A DNA stretch of 64,000 nucleotides from Apostichopus japonicus (taxonomy: Eukaryota; Echinodermata; Holothuroidea; Aspidochirotida; Stichopodidae): contig NC_092570.1 of NCBI RefSeq assembly GCF_037975245.1, positions 13,402,501-13,466,500 of the forward strand, given 5' to 3'. The notes below the pieces were generated by a model, which was given only the letters and a program-made list of their open reading frames with translations, had not been told where the DNA came from and searched no databases. Made by a program: the position numbers and the translations under genes. Positions 4,316 through 51,414 of this stretch are shown one piece after another (the first letter of the stretch is position 1; the number at the start of each line of letters is the position of its first letter).

Positions 4316-5300
4316 TATATGCGTGTTTACGTACCGGTTGGTACTTGGGATGATCAATTAGTGATAAACAAAAGTTTACTTCACTGGGGACAGTTTAATG
4401 ACAAATTACCAGGATCCATTTGTGTGGCACCATGCGAAGCCGGTTTGATTACACAAATGCTACATACAGACAGATGCTGTTGGATATGTAATCGCTGTCA
4501 GCCCTACCAGATTCTTCAAGATGAGTTTACGTGTGCGAATTGGTTTAAGTATAAAATGCTGTCCAAGGACAAGAGCACTTGCGTTGATATCGATGACGAA
4601 TACCTGCGATGGAATGAGGAGGCATTCTCCATCATTCCTGCAGCTTTACCAGTCGTCGGAATTTTCTTTACCATGTTTACCATCATTGGTTTCATCAAGT
4701 ACCAGAACACACCAGTAATACGGGCCTCTGGCTGAGAGTTGTGCTACGTACTTCTGTCGGGAATTTTATTAACTTTCGTATCACCCGTAGTGATTTTACT
4801 ACGCCGCCGAGTGACATTATTTGTGGTTTGAGGAGAATTTTGCTTGGAATACCGTTAGTAATTTCCTATTCTGCTCTTTTTACAAAAACTAACCGTGTTT
4901 ATAGAATATTTAACAGGTGGTAAAAGGTCAATGAAGCGACCCCAGTACACCAGCCCAAGATCTCAGATCGTCATATGCTTATTATTAGTATCCGTACAAT
5001 TATTTGTAACAGTTGCATGGCTGTTGATACATCCACCTCCAGTAACCAGAGAGAAAGCTGAATGGAACAGGGTTATTATTGACTGTTCCGCCTCTGATCT
5101 GGCTGAAGTTACTTCCCTAGTATATGCAATGTTTTTGGTTTTTCTATGCACAGTGTACGCATTCAAAACTCGTAAAATGCCCGAGAACCTCAATGAGGCT
5201 AAATTTATAGCTTTCACAATGTACACAACCTGTATTGTGTGGACTGCCTTCATTCCCATCGTAGTGGGAACATCATCCACAGATTACAAAGTAATTCACA

Positions 5301-5669
5301 CAGTGGCGGAGCGTCCATACAGTCGGACTCAAATGGACTTCTGGCGCCCTTTTCAGCTTTTTACCACTTTTTACTTATTCGCGATTATTGACTTTTTTAT
5401 TGCGCTCTCAAATACCTATTGACATTTGTCACATTTTGTTGGTGTAATTTCCTGACAAAATGGCGATGACACCTATTTATTCTTCGTTTATCTGCAAATT
5501 AGCAAGGCCCGTAAAGGGTCATTTCCTGCGATCTAGGGAGTATCTTTACTCAAAACATTTATGTACGCTCCGCGCCAACCTGTGGTGGCGCTCCGCTTAG
5601 ATATTGTCGAAAGCGCCCCTACAGACCATTCTCGCCCCCCCCCGACCAATACCCCTAGCTCCGCCACTG
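5301..5669 (+). mobile_element. hAT-like MITE (369 bp) in the mGluR intron
   Basis: Terminal inverted repeats CAGTGGCGGAGC / GCTCCGCCACTG bound the element. A perfect 8-bp target duplication AATTCACA flanks it at 5293-5300 and 5670-5677, the signature of hAT transposases. There is no coding capacity. It sits 10 bp downstream of the splice donor at 5291. A second, inverted copy of the same family lies at 34727-35134. Confidence 0.92.
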
Positions 5670-12096: not shown

Positions 12097-17700
<5,604 letters not shown>

Positions 17701-23900: not shown

Positions 23901-26900
23901 ATGGCGGCCTGGCAGCAGTTTTCAACAGTATGGCTGGCTTTGATAATAGCCACAACGATCGTATCAGGTGAGCATATGTAAAGTTTACAATTCATTGGAA
24001 ATCCTTTCATAATTGTTTTATATCGAAAGAGCTATAAGAGTCAAGAAGAAATCCGTGACATTCTGTACAGCTGATCCAGGATTCCTCGGAAGATGTGGAG
24101 GTGGAGGTGGAGGTGGAGATGGAGATGGAGGTGGGATGGAAAGAGTAGGGAGGATAGGACTTTCTTGGTCTAGTTACGTAAAATGGATAAATCTTTCTTA
24201 TGGGAAGTTGTTGGGACAGGTTTTGACTTCTCGTGTATGATTACGTCACGTTACCTGATATTTGTTTCACGTGTTATTCTAATTCTCACGTGTCCTGCCT
24301 CATGTCTCACATTTACGGTGTCTTCAACGTGTTATTCTTTTTCTCACGTGTCCTGCCTCATGTCTCACATTTACGGTGTCTCAACGTGTTATTCTATTTC
24401 TCACGTGTCCTGCCTCATGTATTTACGGTGTCTCAACGTGTTATTCTATTTCTCACGTGTCCTGCCTAATGTCTCACATTTACGGTGTCTTCAACGTGTT
24501 ATTCTACTTCTCACGTGTCCTGCCTCATGTATTTACGGTGTCTCAACGTGTTATTCTATTTCTCACGTGTCCTGCCTCATGTCTCACATTTACGGTGTCT
24601 CACCTCTCAGTGCTCCCGTGTCCTGATGGAGTCTGTACTGAAATAAAAAATAAAAAATAATAAGTTACGTCATCAATTAAATATTCTATAGTTTTGCAGA
24701 AAAGAAGCTGCGTGGTTGTCGCCTACATGATCGTACGAAAGCTTTCCTAATGTCTGAACATCAATGCAGTATTACCACGTCGATGTTTTCAATGTTAAAA
24801 AAAAATTGGTAAATACATTTATGTGGTAAAGAAGAAAATATTTGTTCCCTTTTTTATAGGAATGTCCAATTGTCCTGATGAAACAGTCGGCTTATCGTGC
24901 GATAATTTAAACGGTAAGAGTTTATTATTCTATTCAAGGTTCTTGATCAATGATCACAAACATTAGAAGCTTACAATCTGATGGCGGAAAGGAGAGAGGC
25001 GGAAGGGGGTTGGCAGGATGGGGGATTCGGAGGCGGTATTGAAGAGATCAATTGAAGGGGGTTGACGATATCATGAATGGGTTTGCCATTTCTTTGACAT
25101 AATTTACCAAGTTTCCATGAGTCACGAGGGAAGGGGAGAGGCAGAAGCGGTTAATGGGAGATGGAATATATTTTAAGAGGGGAAACAAGAATTTCTATCG
25201 GAGAGGAAAGATTCTACCTTTTCACTATTCTTTTTCCTTTCACCATACTCAAGATATTGTTGCTATTAGTTTTAAGATGATAATAACAGCATATAGTTTG
25301 TTCCGTTTGGCAGACCGCAGTGAGTGGGGTGTATGTACTGTGCGGGGAGATCCACACATCAACACCCTCGATGGAAAAGAATGGCGTTATTTTGGACATT
25401 GCGAATATATCCTATCTGAATTCTGCGAAGACAACGACAACGACTTTCAAATCACCGCTGATTTTGACCCACGTGCCAAGAATCCGAGCCAGACGTATGC
25501 AGCGTCGGTTACTTTAAAAATAGGTGGCGATACCTTTACCATTGGTGTGGGTGGGGCTAATCCCGCTATAGGTACCTACACCACGGTGGAGAATGGCTAT
25601 ATAGTTTATGTATTTGCTAACGCTGCAAATACTAAACTGGTGAGTTTATTTTAAAAGTTAGTACAGGTGTATTTTTTTCTATAAATCCCGTTAATAGAAG
25701 AATGTCGGTTTCGGAATTGGATTAGAAACACTATTACTTTTTTATCAGGCTTACATTAGAGATGCATTTTATTGTGTAAGCTGTTGCTATGGTGATACCA
25801 TTACAGAATTAATACCAATCAGACTATTTGGTGACCAAAACAAATTATATCAGTAATAATTTCTGTCATTCTTTGTTAATATTCATGATCCTTTTTTTTG
25901 TGAAGCCAGAACTTGAAGATCGGGAAAAAAAACTAATATGTTAAATCTAAACAATATTCGACTCCAAGCAGATATCCTCTACGCGGAAAATTTAAGTCAC
26001 TTTTAAGAAGCACTTTACTTTTAATAGCAGCAATTTGACAAGACTTCTATACTTGTTTACTTTCATTTTACCTTAAAAGACATCAGTACTGCCCACAAAT
26101 GTAAATTAGATGATCAGGTCATTGTCATTCATCATTTAGCTTCACCAGTAGACATAATAGCATCCTCGAAAAGTCTTCCTCATTAAACAAAAATAAACAT
26201 TTTCCAACTGAACATGACCCTAATGTCTGTGAATAATTGAGTCCAAACCGCCAGAAAAGTATACTTTTGAGAACTGGATGTTTACGCATGCTTACATTTG
26301 TGACCAACACTAGCAACCGGTGCCAAACCTATTTAGTCTGTACCATATTGAACCTTATATGCTCACCTCTTGTAGGTAGTTTTGTACTGAAACCGCTTGC
26401 CCGTAGGGGTCCATGAACTTGCCTTAACTAATGCCAGTCAGTTGGAACAGTTTCCTAAAGCTAATACTTTTAAACTGTCCCTTCATGTCATGCTACAAAG
26501 CACTTATATTGACAGTACAAACAGTTCCTAACCTTTATATGATAGAAACATGATATTCATACTGCTCATACTGACATTACGAGTGCTCCGGAAAGCGGGA
26601 CCTGACAGTACGGTATATATAGAGAAGATTGTCTTACGTGGGTACTCACCATTGCTATTGGACTGTAAACGTTTTGGTTTGGGGTTTTTTCTTGATAATA
26701 TTTTAATAATTTATTCACAAAGGAAAATAATCTATGTATTAAATACTTGTAGTTAATGAAACTATGAATTACATTGGCATTTTCTTTTTTATTCTTTAGT
26801 ATATCCGCGTTACACTCAATGACGAGGACATTGTCAGGATAAGCTATCGGGAAAAATTTCACTTGATCGAGATCCACTTTGATTATGGCACTCATTACGA

Positions 26901-28135: not shown

Positions 28136-28289
28136 TAAATATAAATGAAAATCGTAATGAGTTGGAAAATCAAGAACAGTGAAAAACTTTAAGCCTCCAC
28201 CGGGATTCGAACCACGGGCCTTCCGCTCTGTACGCGGACACCCTAACCACTAGGCTATGGACGCTGATTTTATGTCCAGAGGTTCGAAA

Positions 28290-28385
<96 letters not shown>

Positions 28386-28660
28386 AGAATTGAATGTGTA
28401 GCAAGTGGTATGACAGATATATAGTAATTCAATAAAGAATTACACACCAGACAAATTCCACTTCACGAACGGTTTCGTCCTTTTGGGACTCATCAGGACT
28501 CACACTTTAACACACCAGTAGAATCACTGTGGTCGAGTGGTACGGACTTTGGTTCGTGACACGAAGATCCGGGGTTCGAATCCTACCTTCGCCTGATGAG
28601 TCCCAAAAGGACGAAACTGGTCGTGAAGTGGAATTTTTCTGGTGTGTTATTCTTTATCGA

Positions 28661-28704
<44 letters not shown>

Positions 28705-38210: not shown

Positions 38211-38694
38211 AAGGTCAATCGTTTGAAAACCAGAATATTGATAATTAAAAACATTATTATTATAATTCAAATTTTATTTTTGTTGGGCAATGACATTAAA
38301 ATTCTGTGTCGGTGTGATTTATTAAGTGTAATAACTGAACAGATTATATATCTTCACACTTCCATTTCGGTTTTCGTTTGTAGACTTTTGTCTTCCAGGA
38401 AAAAAAAGAATAGTTTAGGCTTATTATTTAATATCTTATCTAAATTGAAGCTTAAAATCTCCAACAGTTATGTAATTATGCTAAATTCGGATTGACCAAA
38501 AGTTTAATCCGCAATAATTTAATTCGTTATATCTTTTAATTTTGTTCTTCTTTTTCAATTGATTATTTTGACAGGATCATCAGCATCATGTCCTGAAACA
38601 GAAACATATCCCGCATTGTCCTGTGATATAGGAGGTAGGAAATTGTAAAGAGATGATCTGTTAGTGCAGCAACTATCTTTATGCGGTAATAACC

Positions 38695-39063
38695 CTTCCC
38701 CATCCTCTGCACCCAATCACAGATGAGGGATCCCATCCTCTGCCCTCAATCACAGATGAGGGATCCCATCCTCTGCCCTCAATCACAGATGAGGGATCCC
38801 ATCCTCTGCCCCCAATCACAGATGAGGGATCCCATCCTCTGCCCCCAATCACAGATGAGGGATCCCATCCTCTGCACCCAATCACAGATGAGGGATCCCA
38901 TCCTCTGCCCCCAATCACAGATGAGGGATCCCATCCTCTGCACCCAATCACAGATGAGGGATCCCATCCTCTGCCCCCAATCACAGATGAGGGATCCCAT
39001 CCTCTGCCCCCAATCACAGATGAGGGATCCCATCCTCTGCCCCCAATCACAGATGAGGGATTT
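38695..39063 (+). repeat. 33-bp minisatellite in paralog C intron (11 units)
   Basis: Unit contains GATGAGGGATCCCATCCTCT and GCCCCCAATCACA. 33 bp keeps frames open on both strands, so long ORFs here are artefacts of the repeat. Units alternate CCCCCAAT, CACCCAAT and CCCTCAAT. Confidence 0.95.
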
Positions 39064-39616
39064 GTAACAAGAAGGAATACAGAGATCATGAAAGACATCA
39101 ACTTACATTTTATGTATAGCAAAGGCAATGAATTAACAAAAATCGGGCCAATGGGGGGGGGGGGGGAGGTGTGTGTGATATTTCAATAATGAAATATTTC
39201 CTATCCAGAAAACGTCTAATTTAAAATTTTGGTCATCTCATGTGGTTAAAGTTCTTTACTGGCATAAAACATGCTCATTATGTGCCATAACGAAAACTCA
39301 ATAGACGGACGTTGAAAATATATAGTAGGCCCTCACTGCCTAGATCTTTGCTAGATTCTTTTCACTTTTCCTCATTGCGTTTTCAAGTGGCCACTTTGAT
39401 TTGTTTAACAATGTTTTCGTTGGTGGAGGGGGGGGGGGGGTGATTGGACTGCGGGGAGAAATGTCCGATGCGATGTCAGCCCTCCTCTATATTCTGCCGG
39501 AAGTTACGTCACTGACTCATTGAATATTCATCGGTCATGCAATGCAAATTTTATTGATATTTTAAGTTCATCTTTATTCGACGATCTATTGATGGCAACG
39601 TGTTTATTTATAGGCC

Positions 39617-42399: not shown

Positions 42400-42587
42400 T
42401 AAGAAAAAGTCGCCCAGGAAAGAACCTGGGCACGAAAACCAAACTACTGAACGACTGATCCGCTTCTAACCCCAGTCCCCTTGCATCGGGACTGTGACTG
42501 TGTGATCATCCTCAGGTGTGCATCACCATTCCCCTCGATAGGGAACAGATACTACACATGATCTTAGCCAAAAGGCCAAGAAGCGAC
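42400..42587 (-). ncRNA. U2 snRNA-like sequence, probably a pseudogene or divergent copy
   Basis: Read on the minus strand from 42587, the first ~45 nt follow the conserved U2 5' end: CGCTTCTTGGCCTTTTGGCT, then AAGATCATGTGTAGTATCTG with the branch-site-pairing GTAGTA. A stem-IIa-like hairpin TTCCC/GGGGAA follows. The rest, about 140 nt, does not resemble U2. It still holds hairpins (CAGTCCC/GGGGACTG near 42475-42500 and CCCAGG/CCTGGG near 42415-42430), and no clear ATTTTTG Sm site was seen. It lies in intron 4 of paralog C in antisense orientation. Confidence 0.6.
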
Positions 42588-47962: not shown

Positions 47963-48000
<38 letters not shown>

Positions 48001-48003
<3 letters not shown>

Positions 48004-48165
48004 AATCAATAAAGAATAACACACCAGAAAAATTCCACTTCACGACCGGTTTCGTCCTTTTGGGACTCATCAGGCGAAGGTAGGAATCGAACCCCGGATC
48101 TTCGTGTCACGAACCTAAGCCCGTACCACTCGACCACAGTGATTCTACTGATGTGTTAAAGCGTA
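48001..48165 (-). mobile_element. tRNA-like SINE carrying a hammerhead ribozyme (SINE-2), second copy
   Basis: Minus-strand copy of the 28501-28655 unit, with tRNA-like boxes (TGGTCGAGTGG and GGTTCGATTCC), hammerhead fold and the TTCTGGTGTGTTATTCTTTA tail ending in a (TA)n run (47963-48000). Confidence 0.85.
48038..48079 (-). ncRNA. Hammerhead ribozyme fold, second copy
   Basis: On the minus strand: CTTCGC (48079-48074), CTGATGA (48073-48067), stem II GTCC/GGAC with CAAAA loop, GAAA (48053-48050), and a self-complementary stem III ACCGGT (48050-48045). The cleavage triplet GTC (48046-48044) and GTGAAG (48043-48038) follow. It matches the 28.6 kb copy except for C instead of T in stem III, which gives three pairs with no loop and suggests pairing between two copies. 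Confidence 0.86.
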
Positions 48166-49626
48166 TAAATTGGCTTTGACTAACTGTCATTACGGGCGTA
48201 TTACCCAAGTATTGTGAAAGAGTGGTTATTCTGTGTAAAATTGTGTTAAAAATTTTCAGATTCAAAGCGCCAGGGGTGCACTCTGTACAATCACAATACT
48301 AGGGTTGCATTGACAGCCGAAGGATAGAATAGGTTGCAAAAATATTCCATCGCTTGACGCGCATGATCATTTGTCTTACTATGATAGGCGTCAGATGTAC
48401 ATCAAACGAGATGTTTTGTGCTCCTGCACATAGCAAAGAGGTCTTGATGTATGTGCCAAACGTAATAAATAATTACAACAACAATAATAATAATAATAAC
48501 AGTAATAATAATAATATAGTGAGGGTTTATAAAACGCAGACATATTCATCGATAACGGTACTAAAGACGTACCACAATGACACAAACTAAATTGTACCTA
48601 CTTTTACGTGAATATTCATATTGCTGATTTGATTGTAATCAGTGAAAATTTTATTGTTCTAGGAGGTGGGGCCAGTGGACTATTGTCAGTTCGATTCAAT
48701 ACAAAATATCACCTTATCCTCTCCTTTGTTACTGTTTTGACAACGGTAAAATTCTTCACATGTTTGCTAAACAGTTCGTTGCATTCGCGATACAGTTAGT
48801 TCCATATGAGTATAGTCATTCCAATATTATAAGAGAATTCTTACCATTGATTTGGCTTCAGCATACCGTTTTTGTACATTGCTTCTTTCAAATGATTTAA
48901 ATCCCCATCCCTTCGTTTAGTGTACTGGGAGGGGAGGGAGGAGGAGGGAGGTGGGGGGAGGGGCATTCGGTGGGGGATGAGATATCGTAATTCATCGATA
49001 ACGATATATTATACTTCCGTTTCTGCAAAATGATATTGTCAAATTGCGTTCCACCTCACACCCCTTGAGTCACAGAACTGAAACTTGGTGGGTTATTGTA
49101 CATTATTGGGCGTTAGCTTAGCGCGATGGACTTACCATTTTGAAGGTATAGGAGGGAGAGGATACATCTTACGCCCTACCTTTGCTTAATTTTTCCATAT
49201 CAGTTTATAAATGTCACACAATGCAGGTATATTTGTGTAAGAAAGCATGAAAAAAAGGCATCGAAATACTATATACAACTACATCACGTGATCTATGGAT
49301 TTGATCCATTTTTGTTGACATGAGTAACAAGAAACAAAGAGAAGAGACAAATGAAATATATTTATTCATTATAAGTTCGATCGAATATATGTTTTATCAG
49401 ATATGTACAGAGAATCTCCGATTTCCGATATCAATAACAAGTAATTACCCAAAAATTGTTAATAACAGTAAGAGGAAATATTTATTAATCTTGAATGAAA
49501 ATGGAAATTGACGATTAGTTGTACAAATTTAACTAGAAAATCTCGAAGTTAAAAATCTGTTCGCCGGAATTGTGCAGTCACTCGGCAATTCATTGTATGG
49601 CAAACATACATACACACACCCACCTA
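48166..49626. other. No gene recognised
   Basis: AT-rich region with an AATAAT-rich run near 48480-48520 and a G-rich run near 48925-48980. Open frames are short and without motifs. Confidence 0.5.
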
Positions 49627-49712: not shown

Positions 49713-50129
49713 ATTCTCTACCACAGATAGCTGACACCACTAGTTACATCCCTCATTGTGAAAATATATAAAACACTAAACTGATATATACGCAGCTTTA
49801 ATATTGATATGTTCAGATACATCGCAGCACCGTGTCAAAACTGGTACAACCGTAATTTAGCTCCAGACCTAAGAGGTGTCGAGAGCCAGCTCGAATCCTA
49901 TGGGAGAGTAATGTCTTCCAAGTTATTGAAATGGGAGTCCATTTTTCTTGACCCCCTTTCCGCTCCAGCCCCCCCCCCTCCCTCTACACACGCTGTCCGT
50001 CAGGCCAGCCACTTCTCGTAAGCTAGAGCCTTCACGTTAGCTAGTGAAACTGATCATATTTCGTAAGTTTACATTCTTTTACAACATGACATTCAAGGCA
50101 CCATATCCGAGTGATCATTCTTCGTCCTT

Positions 50130-51375
50130 ACCATTTTCTAAATTCTCTTATCAAAGGATCTCCTTGTGACATTAATGCCACAGTCAGTTCCAATTCTCTT
50201 GTCAAAGGATCTCATTGTGACATTGATGCCACAGTCAGTTCCAATTCTCTCATCAAAGGATCTCCTTGCCACATTGATGCCACAGTCAGTTCCAATTCTC
50301 TCATCAAAGGATCTCCCTGTCCCATTGATGCCACAGTCAGTTCCAATTCTCTCATCAAAGGATCTCCTTGTCACATTGATGCCACAGTCAGTTCCAATTC
50401 TCTTGTCAAAAGATCTCCTTGCCACATTGATGCCACAGTCAGTTCCAGTTCTCTTGTCAAAGGATCTCCTTGTCACATTGATGCCACAGTCAGTTCCAAT
50501 TCTCTCATCAAAGGATCTCCTTGTCACATTGATGCCACAGTCAGTTCCAATTCTCTTATCAAAGGATCTCCTTGTCACATTGATGCCACAGTCAGTTCCA
50601 ATTCTCTTATCAAAGGATCCCAGTGCCACATTGATGCCACAGTCGGTTCCAATTCTCTTACCAAAGGATCTCCTTGTCCCATTGATGCCACAGTCAGTTC
50701 CAATTCTCTTACCAAAGGATCTCCCTGTCACATTGATGCCACAGTCAGTTCCAATTCTCTCATCAAAGGATCTCCCTGTCACATTGATGCCACTCAGTTC
50801 CAATTCTCTCATCAAAGGATCTCCTTGTCACATTGATGCCACAGTCAGTTCCAATTCTCTCATCAAAGGATCTCCTTGTCACATTGATGCCACAGTCAGT
50901 TCCAATTCTCTCATCAAAGGATCTCCTTGTCACATTGATGCCACAGTCAGTTCCAATTCTCTCATCAAAGGATCTCCTTGTCACATTGATGCCACAGTCA
51001 GTTCCAATTCTCTCATCAAAGGATCTCCCTGTCACATTGATGCCAGTCAGTTCCAATTCTCTCATCAAAGGATCTCCTTGTCACATTGATGCCACAGTCA
51101 GTTCCAATTCTCTCATCAAAGGATCTCCTTGTCACATTGATGCCACAGTCAGTTCCAATTCTCTTACCAAAGGATCTCCCTGTCACATTGATGCCACAGT
51201 CAGTTCCAATTCTCTCATCAAAGGATCTCCTTGTCACATTGGTGCCACAGTCAGTTCCAATTCTCTTATCAAAGGATCTCCCTGTCACATTGATTCCACA
51301 GTCAGTTCCAATTCTCTTATCAAAGGATCTCCTTGTCACATTGGTGCCATAGTCAGTTCCAATTCTCTTATATAC
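50130..51375. repeat. 51-bp minisatellite, about 24 units, open on both strands
   Basis: Unit contains TCAGTTCCAATTCTCTCATC and AAAGGATCTCCTTGTCACAT. Because 51 is divisible by three and the unit lacks stops, frames of up to about 300 codons run through it on both strands (17-residue repeats such as SSNSLIKGSPCHIDATV). Two units have 3-bp deletions (near 50791 and 51043). No splice, start or signal context supports expression. Confidence 0.95.
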
Positions 51376-51414
51376 CAAAAGGACCAGCACGGCAATGTGT
51401 CGTACTGATCCCAA

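Follow-up and report, generated by a model that had tools for sequence, protein, structure and literature searches.

Copies of a hammerhead retrozyme with tRNA-type promoter boxes end in a Penelope-like pattern in the sea cucumber Apostichopus japonicus

In a stretch of 64,000 nucleotides from the genome of Apostichopus japonicus (NC_092570.1, positions 13,402,501 to 13,466,500, forward strand; hereafter the window, whose numbering is used throughout) a putative self-cleaving RNA motif stands next to a polymerase III promoter box. An earlier note on this DNA had read the arrangement as a complete hammerhead ribozyme inside a tRNA-like SINE and had left room for the fusion being new. The locus raises two questions, namely what kind of element carries the ribozyme and which enzyme moves it.

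The ribozyme motif is complete. The Rfam covariance model RF00163 (type I hammerhead) matches over its full length at exactly 28587-28628 on the + strand, with 38.4 bits against a cut-off of 34 and a window E-value of 3.7e-6; with this match the conserved core, stems I-III and the open stem I of a type I hammerhead are all present. Every block named in the earlier note is in place on the + strand: the 5' strand of stem I (28587-28592), the CTGATGA block (28593-28599), stem II with its loop, GTCC-CAAAA-GGAC (28600-28612), the GAAA block (28613-28616), the cleavage triplet GTC (28620-28622, predicted cut after 28622) and GTGAAG, the 3' side of stem I (28623-28628). Block positions and covariance match together bear out a type I hammerhead directly 3' of a B box and within a repeat. 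A scan of the window for the 24-base core with up to three mismatches returned three copies, all of them exact (28593-28616 +, 28473-28496 - and 48050-48073 -), and none in 100 shuffles. The last of these belongs to a second type I hammerhead at 48038-48079 (-; RF00163, 38.8 bits).

Outside the six-pair stem I lie an internal loop, UAC/U, and then an outer helix in which the ATTCC of the B box pairs with GGAAT; one of these pairs is broken in the 28587 copy. The UAC/U loop, which presumably resembles the Schistosoma ribozyme, and the CAAAA loop are both there as a candidate contact between stems I and II. RF02275 (HH9) aligns the extended stem I at 48090-48023 (-) with 40.0 bits and also matches locus L004 with 40 bits, in both cases under its cut-off of 52. 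None of the four helices tested shows a two-sided change in 62 copies, and the pairing is consistent across copies but not proven by covariation. Stem III of the 28587 copy consists of a C-G pair and a closing A-U pair around a two-base loop. Most copies carry the palindrome ACCGGU, which reads ACTGGT in the 28587 copy and is replaced in L051 by ACGCGU, likewise a palindrome. Because a weak stem III and the ACCGGU palindrome fit cleavage as a dimer, the 28587 motif may cleave mainly in this form. The axolotl ribozyme HHR_Amex1, according to the accessible part of its description, likewise has a weak stem III with a palindrome and is reported to act as dimers (PMC7229834); its stem III loop has four bases as against two here.

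The repeat that carries the motif is abundant. A 25-base core has 238 exact copies in the genome (120 forward, 118 reverse) and the reversed control has 0. A genome search with RF00163, in which 74 of 66,307 candidates were scored, gave 59 matches; the best 30 of these 59, fetched as loci L051-L080, are all recognisably of the same family, although a few bases differ singly in some of them, within stem I or the cleavage triplet. In locus L004 two copies follow each other head to tail at a distance of 341 bp, which gives a unit of 341 bp and the reference copy for all unit coordinates (u) used below. This unit has a GC content of 0.416 and, when tripled, a longest stop-free stretch of 85 amino acids. 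Folded as a circle it is more stable than the mean of 100 shuffles (z -3.2), with a stem that encloses the tRNA-like part and the ribozyme. The 10-bp stem is formed in the window by AACACACCAG (28509-28518, +) and CTGGTGTGTT (28639-28648, +), which enclose the promoter boxes and the ribozyme, and 528 of 568 cells are paired across 62 copies.

By means of the reference unit, 92 distinct segments were located in L001-L083 and the window, after overlapping fetches had been merged by identical sequence (88 are left once likely segmental duplicates are removed); the loci had been picked by similarity or hammerhead, and copies without a hammerhead are under-represented. Segment starts are scattered over the whole unit. 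Many copies are shorter than one unit and tandem stretches are short, 16 of the 92 segments are over one unit in length, and the maximum is 866 bp. The copies lie on many contigs, and the full-length ones listed are 95-98% identical to the query. A non-coding tandem unit within about 150-450 bp, a type I hammerhead and GC below 50% are thus all present, and the element agrees, RNA evidence apart, with metazoan non-LTR retrozymes as they have been described, and not with a plain SINE. The retrozymes described from coral, mussel and axolotl, as far as the source could be consulted, share the type I hammerhead, the tandem units of a few hundred bp, the GC below 50% and the non-coding character (PMC7229834); peculiar to the sea cucumber element, in comparison with them, are the tRNA-type boxes, the very short stem III, the two alternative 3' ends next to (TA)n and the inverted joins.

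A box-pattern search that allowed 15-70 bases between the boxes located an A box, TGGTCGAGTGG, at 28530-28540 (+) and a B box, GGTTCGAATCC, at 28573-28583 (+), the 3' half of the latter doubling as the outer strand of stem I; the ribozyme begins three bases past the B box. The window holds three such pairs as against 0.07 expected from 60 first-order Markov sequences (maximum 1). Two lie in the retrozymes, at tRNA spacing in both (33 bases between the patterns), and one lies in a tRNA-like SINE head at 28257 (34 bases). Among 44 copies from L021-L080, a sample selected on the hammerhead, 33 retain the A-box pattern, 36 retain the B-box pattern, and 36 have a run of at least four T behind the ribozyme (insertions relative to the reference copy dropped). 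Conservation is 0.963 in the box columns versus 0.933 in the other non-ribozyme columns, which is not a significant difference (p 0.08).

The only run of at least four T in the reference unit is a T5 (u130-134; in the window 28634-28638, +), a possible polymerase III terminator. Since this T5 begins 12 bases after the cut, a self-cleaving polymerase III transcript is plausible; boxes and T5 predict an RNA of about 120 bases (start estimated) that would end about 16 bases past the cut. With B box and ribozyme stem overlapping over so short a distance, the locus would allow a clean test of such an RNA. No tRNA was called by ARAGORN in the window's retrozymes or in 15 retrozyme loci, and RF00005 gave no match at E<=10 in the two retrozyme copies tried, on which grounds a full tRNA or tRNA gene was rejected. 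The expression "tRNA-like" hence holds for promoter boxes at tRNA spacing and not for a tRNA head. In the same way, "tRNA-like SINE" is right as far as it means a repeat with A and B boxes; an ordinary tRNA SINE does not agree with a 341-bp retrozyme that has scattered starts and over-length copies.

The insertion around the ribozyme is composite. Adjoining a (TA)n microsatellite at 28293-28378, an antisense segment (28380-28497, -; u205 to u88, 3' end at site 2 as defined below) holds the antisense core at 28473-28496, and its cleavage triplet is altered from GUC to UUC. It is followed by the sense segment with the complete ribozyme (28502-28672, +; u339 to u168, 3' end at site 1), which terminates in a second (TA)n at 28664-28699. 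A functional partnership between the inverted hammerhead at 28473-28496 and the sense hammerhead was considered and rejected, because the inverted one has a changed cleavage triplet and is part of an inverted-joined layout that recurs in the family. The second retrozyme segment of the window (47994-48217, -; u286 to u168) ends on (TA)n at 47963-48000 and is adjoined by an inverted segment at 48217-48305 with 81% identity.

What is new here is this anatomy of the insertions, with double ends, (TA)n and inverted joins. The 3' ends of 47 of the 92 segments fall at u161-177 (site 1) and those of 27 at u193-205 (site 2), the two sites being about 37 nt apart, and 18 end elsewhere. A (TA)4 lies within 24 bases of 42/47 site-1 ends, 23/27 site-2 ends and 6/18 other ends; (TA)n thus stands beside 65 of the 74 two-site ends, against a background of 165 in 5816 window positions (2.8%). 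Inverted joins, in which a segment lies at most 25 bases from one in opposite orientation, involve 42 of the 92 segments, and 21 such pairs were listed. Most junctions adjoin (TA)n, where a target-site duplication cannot be read. All 74 two-site ends lie beyond the T5, and therefore the RNA that spreads would either read through the T5 or use another promoter; a polymerase III RNA and such a second RNA could coexist.

These ends bear on another account, in which a LINE with a (TA)n tail mobilises what is an ordinary tRNA-derived SINE; the hammerhead would be incidental, and self-cleavage would trim the polymerase III transcript. The boxes at tRNA spacing and the T5 behind the ribozyme would suit this account, as would the tRNA SINE of the same window that also meets (TA)n. 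Nevertheless we regard it as unlikely: no tRNA model matches the retrozyme, segments longer than one unit and scattered starts are not those of an ordinary SINE, and both 3' end sites lie past the supposed terminator.

A different mover is suggested by the Penelope-like elements (PLEs) of the same genome. A search for GIY-YIG domains (150 of 626 candidates scored) gave 37 matches. Locus L084 contains a frame of 903 residues with reverse transcriptase and GIY-YIG domains, and the nearest named proteins to the PLE, among 8000 candidates scored, come from Holothuria leucospilota and Amphiura filiformis. Eighteen copies of this main family, two of them within one insertion (L084), were read at their 3' side. 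Of the ends, 9 lie at or a few bases before ...TTTTTCTAC (site 1) and 6 at ...CAGAACATTGCC (site 2), 31 bases beyond. All 15 ends at the two sites are on (TA)n, and three copies end at neither site: L095 earlier, yet on (TA)n, and L090 and L091 elsewhere. L084 shows the layout of the inverted retrozyme insertions, seen in this one PLE locus: (TA)n, an antisense PLE longer than one 2,999-bp unit, a sense PLE and (TA)n, with parts that are 99.7-100% identical and arms that match at 100% over 2196 bp. A TGCTAC motif lies 64 nt from the GTC at the hammerhead cut in the retrozyme and 63 nt from the GTC of a hammerhead-like remnant in the PLE. Five of eight further GIY-YIG loci (L101, L103, L104, L105, L108) represent another PLE family that also meets (TA)n.

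Retrozyme and PLE thus have like patterns of ends, and because they agree in target, double ends, rough spacing (37 and 31 nt), placement relative to the hammerhead cut or remnant and inverted joins, we hold with moderate confidence that Penelope machinery would mobilise the retrozyme; this comparison took in the junctions of the retrozyme segments and of the PLE copies. Two 3' ends about 30-40 bp apart, the Penelope type, are found in the retrozyme (47 and 27 of 92). Homology to a Penelope-type sequence is not: aligned from the cut, the retrozyme and PLE tails reach a score that 116 of 2000 shuffles also reach, their in-register 9-mer match is reached by 66 of 1000 shuffles, and blastn between them reports nothing below E 3.9. 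A PLE-derived retrozyme tail is accordingly unsupported by homology, and descent of the retrozyme from a PLE is not claimed. That the main PLE itself carries a hammerhead was also considered and rejected; Rfam gave none at E<=1 in L084, L085, L092 and L098, and by reading only the stretch GGGTTTATACCCGAAACGTC is like the 3' half of a hammerhead. We further count against the Penelope reading that the spacing of the end sites is 37 nt in the retrozyme versus 31 nt in the PLE, that a polymerase III transcript stopped at the T5 would not reach the 3' end sites, and that the tRNA SINE at 28191-28265 likewise runs into (TA)n.

Could any non-LTR enzyme have copied the retrozyme RNA, the end sites being merely the places where (TA)n target ends anneal to UAU-rich spots? 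Site 1 does lie in a TATATAT stretch and site 2 is CTTAT, and the tail alignment with the PLE is not significant. However, TAT also occurs at u144, u151, u234, u321 and u336, and since these positions attract few or no ends, microhomology alone does not set the end sites. Moreover, in the genome's PLEs the end sites are not TA-rich, yet the target is the same and the spacing similar, and inverted joins are common to the retrozyme and one PLE locus. We consider a free choice of enzyme improbable. Annealing of a (TA)n primer to the TA-rich site 1 is a simpler partial explanation, and may contribute. That the family is a dead satellite-like repeat whose relic copies were spread by recombination and not by retrotransposition would agree with the many copies below one unit and the short tandem stretches, but is very improbable in view of the defined 3' ends beside (TA)n, of the many contigs on which copies lie and of the close match of the listed full-length copies to the query.

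The explanation we favour, if with some reserve, is a non-autonomous 341-bp retrozyme with a tRNA-type polymerase III promoter, a type I hammerhead and a 3' region where reverse transcription would start, moved by a PLE protein. In such a cycle a multimeric RNA would be transcribed; its hammerheads would cut it to units of 341 nt, probably as dimers held together by the ACCGGU palindrome, and a host ligase would close these to circles. The PLE reverse transcriptase/GIY-YIG protein would then open a (TA)n microsatellite, and one DNA end, or both, would serve to start cDNA synthesis at either of two internal RNA sites, which are about 37 nt apart. Copies that are 5'-truncated, over-length or inverted-joined and lie beside (TA)n would be the outcome. 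A more pointed version, on which we are evenly divided, would make the retrozyme the "SINE" of PLEs, a tRNA-promoted and ribozyme-processed circular RNA template with two internal start sites whose distance from the cut would be much like their distance from the hammerhead-like remnant in the RNA of the PLE.

Identity within insertions speaks weakly for one circle per insertion. Locus L081 combines a sense segment with an antisense array of 2.5 units, and the two are 0.995-1.000 identical, where other loci differ by about 5% (median). In six of 14 multi-unit arrays (L008, L012, L044, L081, L082, L083) the similarity between laps clearly exceeds the median for other loci; it is as high as or higher than that to the nearest other locus in just two, L081 and L083, if exact ties in L044 and L082 are disregarded. 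Support is weak because the other 8 of 14 arrays are not more alike, nor is the window's inverted pair (0.914 versus an other-copy median of 0.926).

How much of this has precedents? A possibly novel fusion of tRNA-type promoter and hammerhead was anticipated, as far as the partly accessible sources show, by the Sm-alpha repeats of Schistosoma, in which polymerase III boxes A and B are combined with a type I hammerhead (PMC2576457); in the same genus 2,342 tRNA-Gln-like predictions were explained as SINEs similar to Sm-alpha (PMC2770079), and a full tRNA is described for schistosome repeats (PMC4918200). Sm-alpha and Sj-alpha resemble the sea cucumber retrozyme in having A and B boxes and a type I hammerhead in one repeat, a likeness that rests on the published descriptions. 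Unlike them, the retrozyme has no model-recognised tRNA, and its ribozyme follows three bases after the B box. In the accessible portions of the open-licence PMC literature no tRNA-type promoter in a retrozyme was found outside schistosomes. Viral contigs gave no exact match to the hammerhead core.

As regards the mover, LINEs or PLEs have been proposed for animal retrozymes, with PLEs as a strong candidate and, in the part of the source available, without junction evidence (PMC7229834). Retrozyme repeats are described, again in an excerpt, as lacking a conserved motif from which the mover could be deduced (PMC7761336), and the accessible open-licence PMC literature yielded no junctions that tie the movement of a retrozyme to PLEs. 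The closest parallel is the PLE PAc of Anolis, for which the available text reports two adjacent internal start sites in vitro, called unique to PLEs and matching an optional tail of 30-40 bp in genomic copies, AT-rich cleavage with extension of both strands, and a hammerhead upstream of the start sites (PMC11167929); retrozymes and SINEs are unmentioned in that text. The sea cucumber retrozyme is like PAc in its double ends, AT-rich target and hammerhead upstream of the end sites. It is unlike PAc in being non-protein-coding and in that no significant sequence similarity joins it to the tail of the PLE from the same genome. Animal retrozymes give rise to abundant ribozyme-born circular RNAs. 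If the Penelope reading is true, the junctions would be evidence on which enzyme moves an animal retrozyme, and a borrowed PLE enzyme would answer how ribozyme elements move; the answer that the junctions suggest is testable, in a genome that has a PLE frame of 903 residues.

Several further observations concern repeats and genes of the same material. The second PLE family (L101, L104, L105, L107, L108) has a minimal hammerhead-like stretch, CTGAAGA...GCTCGAAAGCTC, with variants in L104 and L105; Rfam reports nothing for it at E<=1. Another hammerhead-like repeat, CTGAAGATCGCTACAAAGCGTGAAACTC, lies in L105 at about 523, with a relative in L108 at about 878, next to (TA)n; part of this repeat also occurs in the flank of the retrozyme copy of L013, and it is possibly a further ribozyme family. 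The tRNA-like SINE head of the window (28191-28265, -; RF00005 50 bits, ARAGORN tRNA-Cys ACA) runs into (TA)n on its 3' side, and similar SINE pieces are found near retrozyme copies in L002, L009 and L014. A U2 snRNA fragment with a well-kept 5' part lies at 42500-42587 (-; RF00004, 48.8 bits), and a U2-like stretch below cut-off at 143-218 of L098. Stretches at 12397-12958, 24183-24626, 38679-39128 and 50111-51414 are tandem repeats, since they encode repeated peptide units with several frames open. Finally, the window contains VWD-domain exons at 13439, 25154 and 40790 and a family 3 GPCR gene at 4319-5422.
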